Counted from the stretch's first letter, positions 5,620 to 20,576 are shown. The stretch is DNA of 41,194 nucleotides from a filamentous cyanobacterium CCP2 (GCA_003003615.1 PVWD01000021.1:1-41194), one strand, 5' to 3'. A program made the numbers and translations. Notes: generated from the letters alone by a model not told the origin.

Positions 5620-6057
5620 TCAATAAACCGAAACGGCTCCATTGGCGGCAATGCTGACTGAGGTGCGGCCAGGCGTATCGCTCAACTGCTCCCCAATAAT
5701 AATGGTGACGGTGTTGCCAGAGGTGAACACATCCATACTTAGGCCAATGCTGTCCCCTTGGGGATACGCCACAAAGTAGACAGGCGGAGGAATAAACTGA
5801 GTGGTAGTACTACCAAAAGCAGTAGTGCCGCCGGGTGGCAGAAGCCGTTCAGCAGAAGCAGGCTGGGTGAGCCGACAAACGATCGTCGCGTCGCCGCCAT
5901 TGACCACTTCAATCCGAATCGGCTGGTTAGGATTCACGCTGGCAATGACCTGTCCTGCCTGGGCCATTTCAAAGGAGGACAAGGGGATAGCAGGGGCGAT
6001 CGACGGCACTATTCCAAGACCTGCGACCGCTAGCAACAGGGCAAAATATGATTTCAT
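5620..6057 (-). CDS. Small exported protein, unknown function
   Basis: A 145-residue protein with an N-terminal signal peptide (MKSYFALLLAVAGLGIVPSI, cleavage expected after about residue 22-32) and a beta-rich mature part, including NPNQPIRIEVVNGGDATIVC and a Gly/Thr-rich stretch. I chose the ATG at 6057 because GAGG lies at a good distance before it and it opens directly into the signal peptide; the longer frame to 6114 adds a second, unlikely hydrophobic leader. No catalytic motif is visible. A periplasmic or surface beta-sandwich role is possible. It has no operon partner. Confidence 0.7.
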   Translation of the reverse strand: MKSYFALLLAVAGLGIVPSIAPAIPLSSFEMAQAGQVIASVNPNQPIRIEVVNGGDATIVCRLTQPASAERLLPPGGTTAFGSTTTQFIPPPVYFVAYPQGDSIGLSMDVFTSGNTVTIIIGEQLSDTPGRTSVSIAANGAVSVY

Positions 6058-6287
6058 TAATAAATCCTCAAAGCTTGAGCAGTTAAAACTTAACAGAAGG
6101 ATCAAGCAAAGCATTAATCAGAACCGCTAAATTCGGGCTATAGATTTTTGCCCAAATGCTTCACCACACCCAATTTTTCTTCCTAAATATTAAACCGTAA
6201 TTGTCACGGGCTAGGCTTGCTAAATCCTGTTTTCTTTGATTCAGGCTGAGCCATTGGGCAGGGATCATTCGCTTGTTCCGGGCTGCC

Positions 6288-6986
6288 TCACCGGACTTGT
6301 ACCACCAAAATTGAAAAGTATGGCAAATCTAGACTTGGCCGATCGCGCAAATCGCTATACACCTTTTGATCCGGCAAGGTTGCCCGCACCACCACATGGC
6401 TTTGCTGAAGCAGTTGATGCTGTTTCAACACCGACCACACCTTTTCATAAACCGAACTCACCTTCATCAACACCAAAACATCAGCTTGCTGCAAGGCGGC
6501 TTCCAGATCAGAAACCCTATAAAGCGCGGGCAAGACCATTAGGCGTTGGGTACGAACCGTGAGGGGAATGCCTAAAACGGAAGCGGCCGCCATGGGTGAA
6601 CAAATCCCCGGCACGGTTTGAATCATCACATCAGGATGGGCTGCTTGAAGGGTTTGAGCCAGATAGGTAAAGGTGCTGTAAAAACTGATATCTCCCTCAC
6701 AGGCAAACGCCACATCCCCTTGCTGCAAGGACTGCCATACCTGAGCCGCTGCCGCCTGCCATGCCTGAAGTAGTTCAGCTTCGTCTTGGACATAGGGAAA
6801 AGCCAACGACAGACGAGTTTGCTGCGGTTGGAGCCACGACACCACAATTTGCTCTGCCATACCCGGTTTGCCACCAACACCCGCCGGAAATGCCACCACT
6901 GGAGCCTGCTGCAACAGCCGCAACCCTTTAACGGTAATCAATTCTGGGTCGCCCACTCCGACTCCAATCCCATACAGGATGCCCAT
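6288..6986 (-). CDS. cobI: Precorrin-2 C(20)-methyltransferase
   Basis: A 232-residue tetrapyrrole methylase that transfers a methyl group from S-adenosylmethionine to C-20 of precorrin-2 in the corrin ring pathway leading to (pseudo)cobalamin. The N-terminus YGIGVGVGDPELITVKGLRL is the family signature, with the SAM-binding GVGDPELIT loop. Further motifs are FACEGDISFYSTFTYLA and VPGICSPMAAA, both typical of this family. Length fits CobI/CbiL. No other corrin gene is in the window, which is normal for cyanobacteria, where these genes are scattered. It is divergent from the aminotransferase gene. Confidence 0.93.
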   Translation of the reverse strand: MGILYGIGVGVGDPELITVKGLRLLQQAPVVAFPAGVGGKPGMAEQIVVSWLQPQQTRLSLAFPYVQDEAELLQAWQAAAAQVWQSLQQGDVAFACEGDISFYSTFTYLAQTLQAAHPDVMIQTVPGICSPMAAASVLGIPLTVRTQRLMVLPALYRVSDLEAALQQADVLVLMKVSSVYEKVWSVLKQHQLLQQSHVVVRATLPDQKVYSDLRDRPSLDLPYFSILVVQVR

Positions 6987-15098: not shown

Positions 15099-15422
15099 CT
15101 AAAGCGGAAAACAACGAATTGGGCCGATCGCCAATCGATTTACCGCTTCATAGGCCCAATCTTCTGGACGGACATCAGGAAAGGCAGAGGCAAACTGACC
15201 AGCAGGGCAAGATGGCGCGATCGGTTCTTCTGGGGCAGGTAAGGTTTGGGCATCCAATTCTGGCTCGGTTGGGGTGGGTGCGTTGTCGAGGAGCGGTGCG
15301 TTTGTCTCTGGGAGTGGGGGATTAGGAGATGGCGAGGTTGACTGGGCAAAGGCAGGAGCAACTGCCCAATGGAGAGCCGCAATTGAAGCAAAAACAATGC
15401 TTCCACGAATAACGTTCATCAT
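15099..15422 (-). CDS. Exported protein with a C-terminal partial SLH motif
   Basis: A 107-residue protein: signal peptide (MMNVIRGSIVFASIAALHWA to about AFA, residue 26), a Pro/Thr/Glu-rich linker (27-75), and a C-terminal FPDVRPEDWAYEAVNRLA, the opening half of an S-layer homology motif. The normal SLH continuation (G.. GYPDG.F) is absent and the protein ends with GPIRCFPL. It may be a naturally short anchor or a truncated member of the cyanobacterial SLH exported family. It is convergent with the small repeat gene; the terminator between them may serve only the latter. Confidence 0.75.
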   Translation of the reverse strand: MMNVIRGSIVFASIAALHWAVAPAFAQSTSPSPNPPLPETNAPLLDNAPTPTEPELDAQTLPAPEEPIAPSCPAGQFASAFPDVRPEDWAYEAVNRLAIGPIRCFPL

Positions 15423-15587
15423 GGCTGTCTCAAATCATTCCTTGAATGGAGTACTGGAGCGGGGCTGCGATACGTCTCTAGTCTAATAAATTCGTTCAAT
15501 GTGTTCGAGATATCAGAGCGATCGGCGGGAAGTGCTATAGGCTAAGGGCGAATCTTGTATTTGTTAGAGACGCAGGCGGATACTCCG

Positions 15588-16685
15588 ATGAGCCAGACCC
15601 CCATTAGCAGTAAGCAGGTTGCACAATTAATCAAAAAAAGTACGAAGAAGGTAATTGCAGAGAGTGGTATTGATCCATCTACTCGCAGTGGCAACAAGGA
15701 GCTAGACCATTTGGTGAAGCGGTTAGCAAATCAACCCTTTCCTAGCTTGGAGTCGGCTAAAACATTTGGGGAAACCTTAGGACACAAAATCGTCGCACTG
15801 TCTCAACAGCTTGGCAAGCAAAACCTCGATCGCGGCGTAATTTGGCAATTAGTCGTTCAGAAAGATTTTCCGACACTCGGAGAGTCCGCCCCTTCACAAC
15901 CTCCCCAACCTCAAAAAACTGCTAAACCTCCCGTTGCAGAAAAACCGATCGCAGAAGAAGAACCTGTAGCCGAAGAGCCGATCGCAGAAGAAGCCGTTGC
16001 AGCCAGTGAACCTGATGTGAGCGAAGATCCGCCTGTGGCAGCCAGCGATGAGCCTGTGGTTGAAGAAGAGACAGGCGAGGAGGAAGAGGAGGAAGATAGG
16101 GAAGAAGAACCTGTAGCCGAAGTTGAAGAAGACGATGAGCCTGAGGCAGAAATTGAAGACGATGAACCTGTAGCCGAGGTGGATGTTGAAGACGAAACTG
16201 AAGAAGATTCTGAGGCAGAAATTGAAGAAAGCGAGCCTGTAACTGTCGCTGAGGATGAGAGTGGGATTGAAGTTGGGGATGAGGATGAGGTAGAGGAGCT
16301 TGTAGCTGAGGTAGATGACGCAGAAGAAGATGAGGATGAAATAGAAGAAGAAGAGCCTGTAGCTGAGGTGGAAGAGGATGAAATAGAGGAAGAGGAGGAT
16401 GAGGATGAAGTAGAGGTAGAGGAGCCTGTAGCTGAGATGGAAGAGGATGAAGATGAGGATGAAGAGCCTGTAGCTGAGATGGATGACGCAGAAGAAGAAA
16501 CTGTAGCTGAGGTAGATGCCACAGAGGAAGAGGAGGATGAAGAGCCTGTAGCTGAGATGGAAGAGGATGAAATAGAGGAAGAGGAAGAGGAGGATGAAGA
16601 AGAAGAAGAAGAACCTGTAGCTGAGATGGAAGAGGAAGAAGAGGAAGCATCTGAGCTAGAAGAAGTTCCGCAGAAGAAAAAGTAA
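15588..16685 (+). CDS. Highly acidic protein with Glu/Val/Ala repeat tail
   Basis: From ATG 15588 (in-frame TTG and ATG lie up to 33 bases upstream) the protein has 365 residues. The first 100 residues are an ordered, basic, helical domain (SSKQVAQLIKKSTKKVIAES, ... LDHLVKRLANQPFPSLESAK, ... VIWQLVVQKDFPTL) of no family I recognise. The remaining 260 are almost only Glu, Asp, Val, Ala and Pro, with the recurring phrase EEPVAEMEEDE. It ends in a basic QKKK. At DNA level the tail is a purine-rich GAGGA/GAAGA tract, prone to slippage. A basic domain with a polyacidic tail suggests nucleic-acid or histone-like partner binding, a chaperone, or a metal sponge; all are guesses. Confidence 0.75.
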   Translation: MSQTPISSKQVAQLIKKSTKKVIAESGIDPSTRSGNKELDHLVKRLANQPFPSLESAKTFGETLGHKIVALSQQLGKQNLDRGVIWQLVVQKDFPTLGESAPSQPPQPQKTAKPPVAEKPIAEEEPVAEEPIAEEAVAASEPDVSEDPPVAASDEPVVEEETGEEEEEEDREEEPVAEVEEDDEPEAEIEDDEPVAEVDVEDETEEDSEAEIEESEPVTVAEDESGIEVGDEDEVEELVAEVDDAEEDEDEIEEEEPVAEVEEDEIEEEEDEDEVEVEEPVAEMEEDEDEDEEPVAEMDDAEEETVAEVDATEEEEDEEPVAEMEEDEIEEEEEEDEEEEEEPVAEMEEEEEEASELEEVPQKKK

Positions 16686-16814: not shown

Positions 16815-18005
16815 ATGACGCGGATTCTCATCCTATATTCCTCCCTTGGCTCAGGACATGTGAGTGCCGCCAAAGCGTTGCGCGATGCGTTTTTGCACTT
16901 TCCTGATGTCGAAGTCCTGAGTGAAGATGCGCTGGCTTATACAAGTTCCATTTACCGCAATGCGGTAACTCAAATTTATGAGCAGTTGAGTGTGAAAGTT
17001 CCTCAGCTGTACAAAGCCTTCTATGAAGGCAGCGATGTCGATGACTTGGAAAAGTCTTTAGACAACAATTTGGCGTGGGCAAAAATTGAACGCCCCTTCT
17101 TTCGACGATTAGGAAAAATGGTGAAGGATGCGAATCCTGATGCGATCGTCTGTGTGCAGCAAATCCCTAGCCGCTTTCTGCAACTGCTGGAACAGGATGA
17201 TGAAATTTTCTGTCCTCAATACGTGGTCATCACCGACACGATCGCCCATAGCACCTGGATTAACTATGGAGTCAGCAGCTACTTTTTGCCTAATGATCTC
17301 AGCGTCAATTTCTTAGTGCAGCGTGGAGTTGAGCGATCGGTGTTGCAGGTGACAGGGATTCCCGTCAAACTAGAAATTATGCAGCCTAAATCGCAAACTG
17401 AAATGCGAAAGCGTCATAACTTGCCCCTGGATGCTCCCGTGATCACCCTATTTGGGGGCGGGTTGAATCCAAAGCGGGTGCATTTCATGGTGTCTAATTT
17501 ACTCGAACACCTGGAATCTGGAGTGCTGACAGTAGCGGCAGGTCGAAACAAAGAATTGTTAGATGACCTGGCAGATTTAACGGACAGTCCTACCGTCAAG
17601 CTGCGGAAAGTCGGCATGATTGACTATGTGGATGACCTGATTGTGGCAAGCGATTTGATTATTACCAAAGCCGGAGGGCTAATTACCAGCGAAATTTTGG
17701 CACGGGGAACCCCCATGCTCATTGTTGACCCCATTCCCGGACAAGAAGAACAGAATGCCGATGTCATTGCTGCTGCCGGGGCTGGAACTCAGCTTCGCCT
17801 ATTGGAAATGGTGACACCTGCCGTACAGTACCTCCTGAAACATCCAGAACGGTTGAATGAAATGCGGCAAGCGGCCCAAGAGTTAGGTCAACCCCGTGCG
17901 GCTTTAAATATTGCTGACTTCATTTTGAAAAACTGGCAGGCGCATCGCATCGCAAAGGACATGTCGAAAGCTTTGAGACAGCAAACCGAAACTCATGCAG
18001 ACTAA
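16815..18005 (+). CDS. GT28-type diacylglycerol glycosyltransferase (UgtP/MGDG synthase family)
   Basis: A 396-residue glycosyltransferase expected to transfer glucose or galactose from a UDP-sugar to diacylglycerol at the inner membrane surface. The N-terminal MGDG-synthase domain opens with ILILYSSLGSGHVSAAKALR, with the conserved GxGH at Gly12-His15. The C-terminal nucleotide-sugar domain carries FGGGLNPKR, DLIITKAGGLITSEIL and GTPMLIVDPIPGQEEQNA, whose GG-x-x-x-x-E and PGQE-x-x-N elements bind the UDP-sugar. The TK-x-GG wording is nearer to Bacillus UgtP than to plant MGD1. Cyanobacteria normally make MGDG through MgdA (GT2) and an epimerase, so this would be an additional enzyme. ATG 16815 is preferred; a GTG two codons earlier is possible. 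It overlaps the next gene by 11 bases. Confidence 0.85.
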   Translation: MTRILILYSSLGSGHVSAAKALRDAFLHFPDVEVLSEDALAYTSSIYRNAVTQIYEQLSVKVPQLYKAFYEGSDVDDLEKSLDNNLAWAKIERPFFRRLGKMVKDANPDAIVCVQQIPSRFLQLLEQDDEIFCPQYVVITDTIAHSTWINYGVSSYFLPNDLSVNFLVQRGVERSVLQVTGIPVKLEIMQPKSQTEMRKRHNLPLDAPVITLFGGGLNPKRVHFMVSNLLEHLESGVLTVAAGRNKELLDDLADLTDSPTVKLRKVGMIDYVDDLIVASDLIITKAGGLITSEILARGTPMLIVDPIPGQEEQNADVIAAAGAGTQLRLLEMVTPAVQYLLKHPERLNEMRQAAQELGQPRAALNIADFILKNWQAHRIAKDMSKALRQQTETHAD

Positions 18006-19557
18006 TTTAGAGACGTTATCAGAGACACCAGATTCCTTCCTCTGGGGAGTTGCCACGTCTGGCTATCAGAGTGAAGGCGGATACAATGCCCCCGGTCAAC
18101 CCCAAAACAACTGGTCGTTGAGTGAAGCACGGGGAAAGGTGATGCCAACGAAGGATGCATCTGCCTTCTGGACTCGTTATGAAGAAGATTTTCAGCGATG
18201 TCAGCAGATGGGGCTAAATTCGTTTCGCTTGGGCTTGGAATGGGCACGGATTCAGCCCTCTACCAGCACCACGCCTACCTCGGCTCCCCCTTTTGACTAT
18301 GAAGCTCTGGATGCTTATGCCGATCGCCTTGCATCTTGCCGTCAGCATGGCTTAGAACCCGTTGTTACACTGCATCACTTTACCCATCCGGCCTGGCTTG
18401 GCATTGATGCGTGGCTCTCTGAAGAAACGATCGACTGCTTTACAGACTATGTTCAGGTTTCCGTTGCCCACATCAACAGACGCTTAACCGAGCATTACCA
18501 CCTGCCGCCTGTCCACTGGTACATTACCATCAATGAGCCAAACATGCTGGTGACAAGTGCTTACCTGAGCGGACAGTTTCCGGCAAAAACGCGGGGCTTT
18601 GGAGCCGTCTTAAAGGCATACGATCACCTCTTAGCGGCCCATGTTCAGGCATACAACTGCATTCATGATCTGTACGAAGCCGAAGGATGGGCAACGCCTC
18701 AGGTTTCGCTGAATACCTATTGCAGCGATCTCTACTGGTCGGAAAAAGTGCTTTGGGATTTGTTGGATTTGCGGACTCAACAGGTGAAGCCTGACCAGCT
18801 TGACGATTATATTTACGAAAAGGCAAAGGGCTTTGTTGCCAAGGTAATGGAGGCGCAGTTACCCTTTCGACGCGACATTCCCTACCGGCTGGGGCGGTTG
18901 GTGGGGCATACGGTCAACTGGTTAGGACATCGCCTCTTCAAAGTGCAATCGCTGGATGTTTATTTACAAACCCTGGCAGCTTCTACCCGCCCAAATGTAA
19001 CCGACTTTGTGGCGATCGATTATTACGATCCTTTTATCGCCCATATCCTCCGCATTCCTGCCTTCTCAGACTTTGAGTTTGACATTGAAGACTTGCGGGT
19101 TTGGTTGATGAACGGTGTCACCAGCAAATGGTGGGATTGGCGCAGCCTACCAGAAGGGTTACACTTCTTCTGCAAATACTACGCTGAAGAATTCGATCGC
19201 CCGATTTTAATTGCTGAAAACGGGATGGCCCTTCGCCGGAAGCCAGACAACAGCATTGCATCCCGTCGCCCCGACCAACTGCGCCGCAGCGAGTTTTTGG
19301 AAGCCCATATTGAACAGGTGAAACGCCTGTTACAAGAATCTGTTCCAGTCATCGGCTATATGCACTGGTCGCTGACTGATAACTATGAATGGGGTTCCTA
19401 CACCCCCCGGTTTGGGCTATTCAGCATTGACTTTGAGCAGGGAACTGATCGCCTCGTGACAGATCATTTAGGCGATCGACCGTCAGAAACCTATGCACGA
19501 CTGGTGCAATCTGCCCGACGGGTGCGATCGGCGACTCACAGCAGAAATTCCGAATAG
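17995..19557 (+). CDS. Glycoside hydrolase family 1 protein
   Basis: A 520-residue retaining beta-glycosidase-type TIM barrel. GH1 signatures: FLWGVATSGYQSEGG at the N-terminus, FRLGLEWARIQP, LHHFTHPAW, the acid/base Glu181 in TINEPN, the nucleophile Glu408 in IAENGMA, and C-terminal GYMHWSLTDNYEWGSYTPRFGL. It is about 60-70 residues longer than common beta-glucosidases, with an insertion around residues 255-325 containing a hydrophobic/basic helix (YRLGRLVGHTVNWLGHRLFK). There is no signal peptide, so it acts inside the cell or at the membrane face. Its start overlaps the glycosyltransferase gene by 11 bases, so the two are translationally linked. It may cleave or transglycosylate glycolipid head groups; a soluble beta-glucosidase is the plain alternative. 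Confidence 0.9.
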   Translation: MQTNLETLSETPDSFLWGVATSGYQSEGGYNAPGQPQNNWSLSEARGKVMPTKDASAFWTRYEEDFQRCQQMGLNSFRLGLEWARIQPSTSTTPTSAPPFDYEALDAYADRLASCRQHGLEPVVTLHHFTHPAWLGIDAWLSEETIDCFTDYVQVSVAHINRRLTEHYHLPPVHWYITINEPNMLVTSAYLSGQFPAKTRGFGAVLKAYDHLLAAHVQAYNCIHDLYEAEGWATPQVSLNTYCSDLYWSEKVLWDLLDLRTQQVKPDQLDDYIYEKAKGFVAKVMEAQLPFRRDIPYRLGRLVGHTVNWLGHRLFKVQSLDVYLQTLAASTRPNVTDFVAIDYYDPFIAHILRIPAFSDFEFDIEDLRVWLMNGVTSKWWDWRSLPEGLHFFCKYYAEEFDRPILIAENGMALRRKPDNSIASRRPDQLRRSEFLEAHIEQVKRLLQESVPVIGYMHWSLTDNYEWGSYTPRFGLFSIDFEQGTDRLVTDHLGDRPSETYARLVQSARRVRSATHSRNSE

Positions 19558-19586: not shown

Positions 19587-20576
19587 TCACCAAGTTGTTT
19601 CGCTCAGGTCTGCCTCTTGCAAATTCGCATCGGTTAAGCAAGTATCCCGAAGGTTTGCCCCAACCAAACTGGCTCCCCACAAATTGGCAGAGGTGAGGTT
19701 CGCCCCGGTCAGGTTGGCCCCATCCAGAACAGCCCCCCACAGGTCGGCTCCAGTCAGATTGCTATGCGAAAGGTCTGCATGGCGCAGATCGGCTCCTGCC
19801 AGACTGACTCCGCTTAGATTGGCTCCTTGCAGAAGGGCCCCTGATACAGCTAAGTACAAACCGTTGGCGATCGGGTCATACTCAGCCGGAAACAAGGTGG
19901 CATCATTGCAAAGGGCACCCTTAATCCAGGCAAACGCTACATTTGCCTCCTGGAGGTTGGCTCCAAACAGGTTGACTCCATACAAATCAGCATGGCTCAA
20001 GTCTGCCTGCTGCAAGTTGGCTCCAGCTAAGTTTGCTCGAATGAGCCGCGTCTCCGAAAGGTTAGCGTTGCTGAAGTTTACCCGGTTAAGGTTCGCTTCG
20101 CTTAAATCTGCCCCCAAAAGGTTTGCCTCTGCCAGGTTTGCATCCCTCAAGTCAGCCTGGCGTAAATCTGCACCGCTCAAGTCACAACGGCTCAAGTCAG
20201 CTTGGTGCAACCGGGAACCGGGAACAATCAGGTAGGCTCCCGCACCAGACCAGTCAGACCCAGAGGGCAGTTCAGTGGTTTCATCCCACAGAGCCTCATC
20301 CAGGCGAGTCGATCGAAGGTTGGTTTGTTTCAGCTTGGCTCCGCGCAAATCAGCCCGACGGAGATCTGCCCCTGCCAAAATTGCCCCATTTAACCGGGCT
20401 TCTCTGAGGTTGGCACTTCTGAGGGTCGCTTCAATTAAATTTGCACCCTGTAAATCTGCCTCCCAAAAGTCAACCTCAGGTAACATCGCCCGACGAAGAT
20501 TCACCTGCCGCAAAGTGGCCCCACTAAAATCTCTGGTTCCAGTGGCATATTTCTGAAGTAATTCGTCTGCATTCAT
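19587..20576 (-). CDS. Pentapeptide-repeat protein
   Basis: A 329-residue protein made almost wholly of A(D/N)LXX pentapeptides, which fold into a right-handed quadrilateral beta-helix. Two interruptions occur: around residues 90-120 (WDETTELPSGSDWSGAGAYL) and 210-245 (ATLFPAEYDPIANGLYLAVS), a layout common in cyanobacterial members. No signal peptide, TM or enzyme domain is fused. Function of such proteins is mostly unknown. It is convergent with the GH1 gene, 29 bases apart. Confidence 0.95.
   Translation of the reverse strand: MNADELLQKYATGTRDFSGATLRQVNLRRAMLPEVDFWEADLQGANLIEATLRSANLREARLNGAILAGADLRRADLRGAKLKQTNLRSTRLDEALWDETTELPSGSDWSGAGAYLIVPGSRLHQADLSRCDLSGADLRQADLRDANLAEANLLGADLSEANLNRVNFSNANLSETRLIRANLAGANLQQADLSHADLYGVNLFGANLQEANVAFAWIKGALCNDATLFPAEYDPIANGLYLAVSGALLQGANLSGVSLAGADLRHADLSHSNLTGADLWGAVLDGANLTGANLTSANLWGASLVGANLRDTCLTDANLQEADLSETTW

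Follow-up and report, generated by a model that had tools for sequence, protein, structure and literature searches.

The 41,194-nucleotide stretch of DNA analysed here (the window), from the filamentous cyanobacterium CCP2 (GCA_003003615.1 PVWD01000021.1:1-41194), carries a GT28 glycosyltransferase gene that overlaps a GH1 glycosidase gene, and this pair, which is genuine and old, occurs in cyanobacteria mostly where the epimerase MgdE is absent. We tentatively favour the reading that the pair is a sugar-swapping module acting on a membrane lipid, which in most of the cyanobacteria that bear it stands in for MgdE. Cyanobacterial MGDG is made by MgdA, the GlcDG synthase, and then by MgdE, yet mgdE is absent from G. 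violaceus, T. elongatus and A. marina, and since G. violaceus nevertheless turns GlcDG into MGDG an unknown 'mgdX' has been postulated (PMC4742570). Reviews from 2016 to 2021 derive the MGD1-type GT28 enzymes from green bacteria (PMC4742570, PMC8227023). A literature search that covered few subscription papers turned up no description of a bacterial GT28-GH1 pair, of a cyanobacterial GT28 of the MGD1 type or of an identified mgdX, and the anti-association of the pair with MgdE is new.

The features of the pair, in coordinates of the window, are as follows.

16815..18005, + strand: GT28 gene, first of the pair, 396 aa from the ATG at 16815, with MGDG_synth and Glyco_tran_28_C domains.
16806, + strand: TTG, a possible alternative start of the GT28 gene.
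17995..18005, + strand: 11-bp overlap of the GT28 and GH1 frames, the GH1 ATG lying within the last GT28 codons.
17995..19557, + strand: GH1 glycosidase gene, second of the pair, 520 aa.
18847..18981, + strand: extra helical stretch of the GH1 protein (residues 285-329), drawn from AlphaFold helices, length comparison and the pattern in orthologues.

An earlier note, made from the sequence of the window, had placed the upstream gene in the UgtP/MGDG synthase family and had read the downstream gene as a GH1 enzyme with both catalytic glutamates, and the profile searches agree on both counts. The GT28 protein matches PF06925 (MGDG_synth) over the full model (1-169) with 84 bits against a cut-off of 25, and PF04101 with 26.3 bits (cut-off 22); its GxGH motif is G12-S-G14-H15 and its PGQEE motif occupies residues 308-312, within PGQEEQN, with G12, G14, H15 and P308-E312 invariant in the alignment of 21 orthologues. 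The GH1 protein matches PF00232 with 198 bits (cut-off 22.6), and its E181 and E408 align with E166 and E351 of T. maritima BglA. The 11-base overlap described in the same note is also correct, positions 17995-18005 being common to both open reading frames, and an overlap of the same length recurs in five other loci (L007, L008, L009, L011 and L025), which makes translational coupling of the two genes likely. Directly upstream of the pair lies a gene (15555-16685, +) that is not kept beside the pair in other genomes; in its protein product Glu/Asp make up nearly the whole C-terminal half, with repeated EEPVAE-like units; downstream, a gene for a pentapeptide-repeat protein (19587-20576, -), with long antisense frames over it, converges on the GH1 gene.

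The linkage of the two genes proved to be without exception in the cyanobacteria surveyed. The GH1 was present in 22 of 117 related genomes besides the host, at 59-72% identity and each time (22/22) with the GT28 gene directly upstream on the same strand, in many cases with an 11-base overlap as in the host, and when the survey was widened to 390 cyanobacterial genomes (one class) the GT28 and GH1 profiles matched an identical set of 39, neither alone, with the two matches adjacent and GT28 upstream of GH1 in all 39. Because the pair is conserved with high identity across cyanobacterial families (55-77% for the GT28 and 58-71% for the GH1), it is not due to chance. Moreover, a PF06925 search found a match in all five of the pair genomes sampled and in none of the 75 others sampled, so that in the cyanobacteria sampled the MGDG_synth family is confined to the pair. 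Several pair members are broken by frameshifts, stops or split matches (the GT28 in L036/G027 and G313; the GH1 in G304, L051, L052, L057 and L084), for which decay or draft sequencing errors are possible causes. Open frames of 820-832 aa in Gloeobacter-type genomes had suggested a GT28-GH1 fusion, a candidate that we rejected on finding the GT28 in a different frame.

The conservation in other cyanobacteria that the earlier note had proposed to look for thus exists, in 39 of 390 cyanobacterial genomes, and the pair is also found in Verrucomicrobiota. A GTDB-wide scan, from which 80 of 457 loci were taken, placed relatives in these two groups, besides a few MAGs of Actinomycetota and a single record under the label Betaproteobacteria. 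The GT28 gene adjoins the GH1 gene in nearly all the verrucomicrobial loci, with opposite orientation in two Methylacidiphilum loci; a GT28 of 650 aa is divergent beside the GH1 in Methylacidiphilum sp. Phi (L100 2246-4195, -). No GT28 was found in the flank covered for L065 or L088, the genome of the latter having a pair-type GT28 on another contig. A larger shared operon was ruled out: no third gene family is broadly common to the cyanobacterial and verrucomicrobial neighbourhoods, and the two genes therefore form a module of their own.

To relate the pair to MGDG synthesis we took as MgdE-type the proteins matching NF005653 (bifunctional sterol desaturase/SDR), in accordance with the description in PMC4742570. 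Such proteins were present in 291 of the 390 genomes, and were absent from 32 of the 39 pair genomes versus 67 of the 351 others (present in 7 and 284, respectively; Fisher P 4e-15). With phylogeny handled by family strata only, 7 genomes had both the pair and MgdE, against an expectation of 15.2 (exact P 2e-5; Mantel-Haenszel odds ratio 0.08). The same exclusion is seen at close range in one genus of the host's family (g5), where two members have the pair without MgdE and three have MgdE without the pair. MgdA, recognised in three genomes from proteins that adjoin MgdE and share 57-59% identity with the Synechocystis reference, was found in 378 of the 390 genomes and in 38 of the 39 with the pair, in line with the earlier remark that cyanobacteria otherwise use MgdA. 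The host itself has the pair and MgdA; it has no NF005653 match, and none of its three FA_hydroxylase proteins is MgdE. One host contig (C518) holds two MgdA matches of identical score and length, at 5670-6926 (-) and 15281-16537 (+), either a recent inverted duplication or an assembly artefact.

The pair is also present, again without MgdE, in two genomes (G048 and G080) that we take to be Gloeobacter violaceus PCC 7421 and G. kilaueensis JS1. It is thus found mostly where MgdE is absent and MgdA kept, but not in all MgdE-less genomes: 67 lack both, including a group of 2.4-2.8 Mb genomes (f26/g48; e.g. G064, G077, G090 and G130), presumably Thermosynechococcus-like. Another solution must therefore exist, and these genomes must have a further route from GlcDG to MGDG if MGDG is made there. 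Overall, the distribution of the pair points less to the SFR2-style making of oligogalactolipids than to a stand-in for MgdE.

The AlphaFold model of the GT28 protein (pLDDT 87.6) has plant MGD1 as the best structural match (4wyi/4x1t, E 4e-20; next other protein 2e-13), and the solved structure nearest to it by sequence is 9wde, named a processive diacylglycerol beta-glucosyltransferase. The best NCBIfam match is NF010135, at 182.3 bits far under the cut-off of 500 for a UgtP equivalog, and the donor-site segment KAGGLITSE is nearer to that of UgtP (KPGGITLTE, UDP-Glc) than to that of MGD1 (KAGPGTIAE, UDP-Gal). In the tree UgtP falls together with the cyanobacterial and verrucomicrobial pair GT28s, with MGD1 and most verrucomicrobial paralogues apart, and a clade of the cyanobacterial GT28s with MGD1 was disfavoured (AU p 0.024), which speaks against close kinship or orthology with MGD1. 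Between cyanobacteria and Verrucomicrobiota the GH1 is about 50% identical and the GT28 only about 30%. A partner swap between the phyla was considered and rejected, since a single clade of all pair GT28s is compatible with the data (AU p 0.449) and faster divergence of the GT28 is therefore enough to explain its low identity. Verrucomicrobiota also have a second, separate group of MGDG_synth GT28s (L222, L224, L226-L228 and the divergent GT28 of L100), several with open frames of 650-680 aa.

The GH1 protein is cytosolic, with no signal peptide, and its AlphaFold model (pLDDT 89.9) has GH1 structures as its best matches, headed by human cytosolic beta-glycosylceramidase (2e9l), a hair's breadth above many beta-glucosidases. 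In an alignment to BglA the glycone pocket is kept (Q25, H128, Y344, W458, E465 and W466), and an Asp (D342) replaces the active-site N293 of BglA in all 36 aligned GH1s of the pair clade. In two cyanobacterial orthologues (L026/L056 and L027/L062) the acid/base motif is NEL instead of NEP, with the catalytic Glu retained. The earlier note's figure of 60-70 residues for the insertion was overstated, for between the acid/base Glu and the active-site Tyr the pair GH1 has 163 residues, compared with 129 in T. maritima BglA, 136 in the host's canonical BglA, 116 in LacS and 110 in SFR2, which amounts to about 27-34 extra over bacterial GH1s and about 50 over LacS and SFR2; the remaining extra length is spread over small insertions. 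The hydrophobic and basic helix that it had placed there holds up better, as a confidently predicted amphipathic basic helix at residues 295-314 (IPYRLGRLVGHTVNWLGHRL; hydrophobic moment 0.5-0.57), followed in the model by a second helix at 317-329. The basic/aromatic pattern of this stretch is kept in cyanobacterial orthologues, and from the model it is possible that helix 295-314 contacts the membrane surface. An N-terminal hydrophobic anchor was not found: FLWG is preceded by 14 residues, and these include no hydrophobic stretch.

When the GH1 was placed in a phylogeny with the host's BglA, T. maritima BglA, LacS, SFR2 and verrucomicrobial paralogues, as the earlier note had suggested, it stayed apart from the soluble cellobiases: a single clade (100/100), separate from all others, unites the pair GH1s with their actinobacterial relatives, and the match to the canonical beta-glucosidase model TIGR03356 reaches 193.3 bits against a cut-off of 478.5. 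Kinship with SFR2, which the earlier note's plant parallel had implied, is not supported, with 22% identity, SFR2 pairing with archaeal LacS in the free tree (95/77, on long branches) and the N-terminal membrane extension of SFR2 missing; a forced clade of SFR2 and the pair GH1s was nonetheless compatible with the data (AU p 0.161). The SFR2, LacS, BglA and MgdA references were provisional sequences rather than database records, checked by length and catalytic positions (for SFR2, length 622 and E267/E429) or, for MgdA, by alignment. Three Actinomycetota loci (L107, L108 and L111) and the MAGs G405 and G406 have several GH1s of the same clade per genome, with the Asn-to-Asp change. No MGDG_synth-domain GT28 was matched in G405 or G406, and GH1s of this kind may be older than the pair or may act with a different transferase.

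From the sequences and their context, the probable role of the GT28 is to glycosylate a membrane lipid, and that of the GH1 to take such a sugar off or to move it. The GT28 would work at the cytosolic membrane face, using a UDP-sugar to place a hexose on a lipid of the diacylglycerol type, and the GH1 would remove, or pass on, the hexose of beta-hexosyl lipids. Applied to MGDG, MgdA would make GlcDG, the GH1 would strip its glucose to leave diacylglycerol, and the GT28 would add galactose in its place to give MGDG, with a net effect resembling the epimerisation of GlcDG, as reported for one MgdE-less species. Here we infer the lipid substrates, UDP-Gal as donor, a hydrolytic and not a transfer reaction, and the sequence of steps. 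That the pair replaces the GlcDG epimerase in MgdE-less cyanobacteria, Gloeobacter included, by this exchange of glucose for galactose is a possibility that we regard as doubtful. The exchange is favoured by the perfect linkage, the anti-association with MgdE, the retention of MgdA, the limitation of MGDG_synth to the pair and a glycone pocket that, by alignment, is kept for non-phosphorylated glucose or galactose. Against it stand the UgtP-like donor motif, the 67 genomes with neither MgdE nor the pair, the seven genomes with both, and the related GH1s of two actinobacterial MAGs without any MGDG_synth gene. To our knowledge Verrucomicrobiota are not makers of galactolipids, and the exchange would therefore need a different purpose there.

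The UgtP-like donor motif is in keeping with glucolipid turnover, in which the GT28 would make mono- or diglucosyl-DAG and the GH1 would trim or recycle them, tuning the balance of bilayer and non-bilayer lipids, with only an indirect link to MgdE. The proximity of 9wde and the NF010135 match (182 bits, best although far below 500) agree with this, as does the presence of the pair in Verrucomicrobiota; the MgdE pattern is not predicted by it, and we hold it to be unlikely. Much the same standing belongs to another lipid acceptor (hopanoid, carotenoid, polyprenol or sphingolipid), glycosylated by the GT28 and deglycosylated by the GH1, for which we would not expect a favourable outcome. GT28s also use isoprenoid acceptors (MurG), the pair occurs in non-photosynthetic Verrucomicrobiota, and the glycosylceramidase heads the structural matches of the GH1, if by a hair; the full-length MGDG_synth domain of the GT28, MGD1 as its clearly best structural match, the MgdE pattern and the lack of a third gene family conserved nearby speak against such an acceptor.

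Retaining GH1 enzymes can transglycosylate, and in an SFR2-like scheme the GT28 would make beta-hexosyl diacylglycerol and the GH1 would move hexose between such lipids, yielding di- and oligohexosyl lipids and diacylglycerol without more UDP-sugar. We consider this quite improbable even though plants use both enzyme families on galactolipids (PMC5809773) and an amphipathic helix lies by the extra region of the GH1, because the pair GH1 stands apart from SFR2 in the free tree (a forced clade being compatible with the data, p 0.161), has no N-terminal membrane extension and keeps Q25, which is not aligned in SFR2, and because the scheme by itself leaves the anti-association with MgdE unexplained. 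Least credible, to the point of being nearly dismissed, is that the GH1 is an ordinary soluble sugar beta-glucosidase lying beside the GT28 gene by coincidence. Its fold, catalytic residues and PF00232 match would allow this, but the linkage is 39/39 without singletons and is seen again in another phylum, the GH1 forms its own clade away from BGL (TIGR03356 193 vs 478.5), and a distinct canonical BglA (L001) is also present in the host. Moreover, the pair-type GH1 is the only GH1 match in the methanotroph-type genomes (Methylacidiphilum/Methylacidimicrobium), which argues against a cellobiose-eating role.

The mgdX question thereby gains a two-gene candidate, a GT28 tied to a GH1 and found mostly where MgdE is missing. 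Carried by about a tenth of cyanobacteria and by many Verrucomicrobiota, the pair may be the missing alternative route to MGDG; if so, it would be a third way to this lipid and would include the only MGD1-type enzyme in cyanobacteria, and if the GH1 proved to transfer sugar, bacteria would have a parallel to the oligogalactolipid synthesis of plants.

Compared with known systems, the proposed exchange module would share with the MgdA-MgdE pathway its starting lipid, GlcDG, and its end product, MGDG. MgdE, however, belongs to the membrane desaturase-like/SDR epimerases, leaves the sugar on the lipid while isomerising it, and has no sequence relation to the pair proteins, whereas the pair would exchange the sugar by means of a hydrolase and a GT28. 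With plant MGD1 the pair GT28 shares the family, the MGDG_synth domain and the GT-B fold (its best structural match), but they are only 27% identical, differ in the donor motif and are unlikely to form a common clade (p 0.024), and MGD1 relies on neither MgdA nor a GH1 partner gene. Bacillus UgtP, the processive diacylglycerol glucosyltransferase, has the family, 26% identity and the donor-site KxGG motif in common with the pair GT28, which falls under the UgtP equivalog cut-off; no GH1 partner of UgtP is known. Plant SFR2/GGGT shares with the pair GH1 the GH1 fold, the catalytic pair and possibly a lipid substrate, but at 22% identity and with inserts at different positions; its N-terminal hydrophobic anchor and long Loop A have no equivalent in the alignment of the pair GH1, which for its part keeps the glycone Gln (Q25) that has none aligned in SFR2. 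Finally, canonical BglA (TIGR03356) has the same fold, catalytic glutamates and glycone residues, whereas the pair GH1 belongs to a separate clade, has Asp in place of N293, is some 30 residues longer from the catalytic Glu to the active-site Tyr, and in cyanobacteria has an obligate GT28 neighbour.
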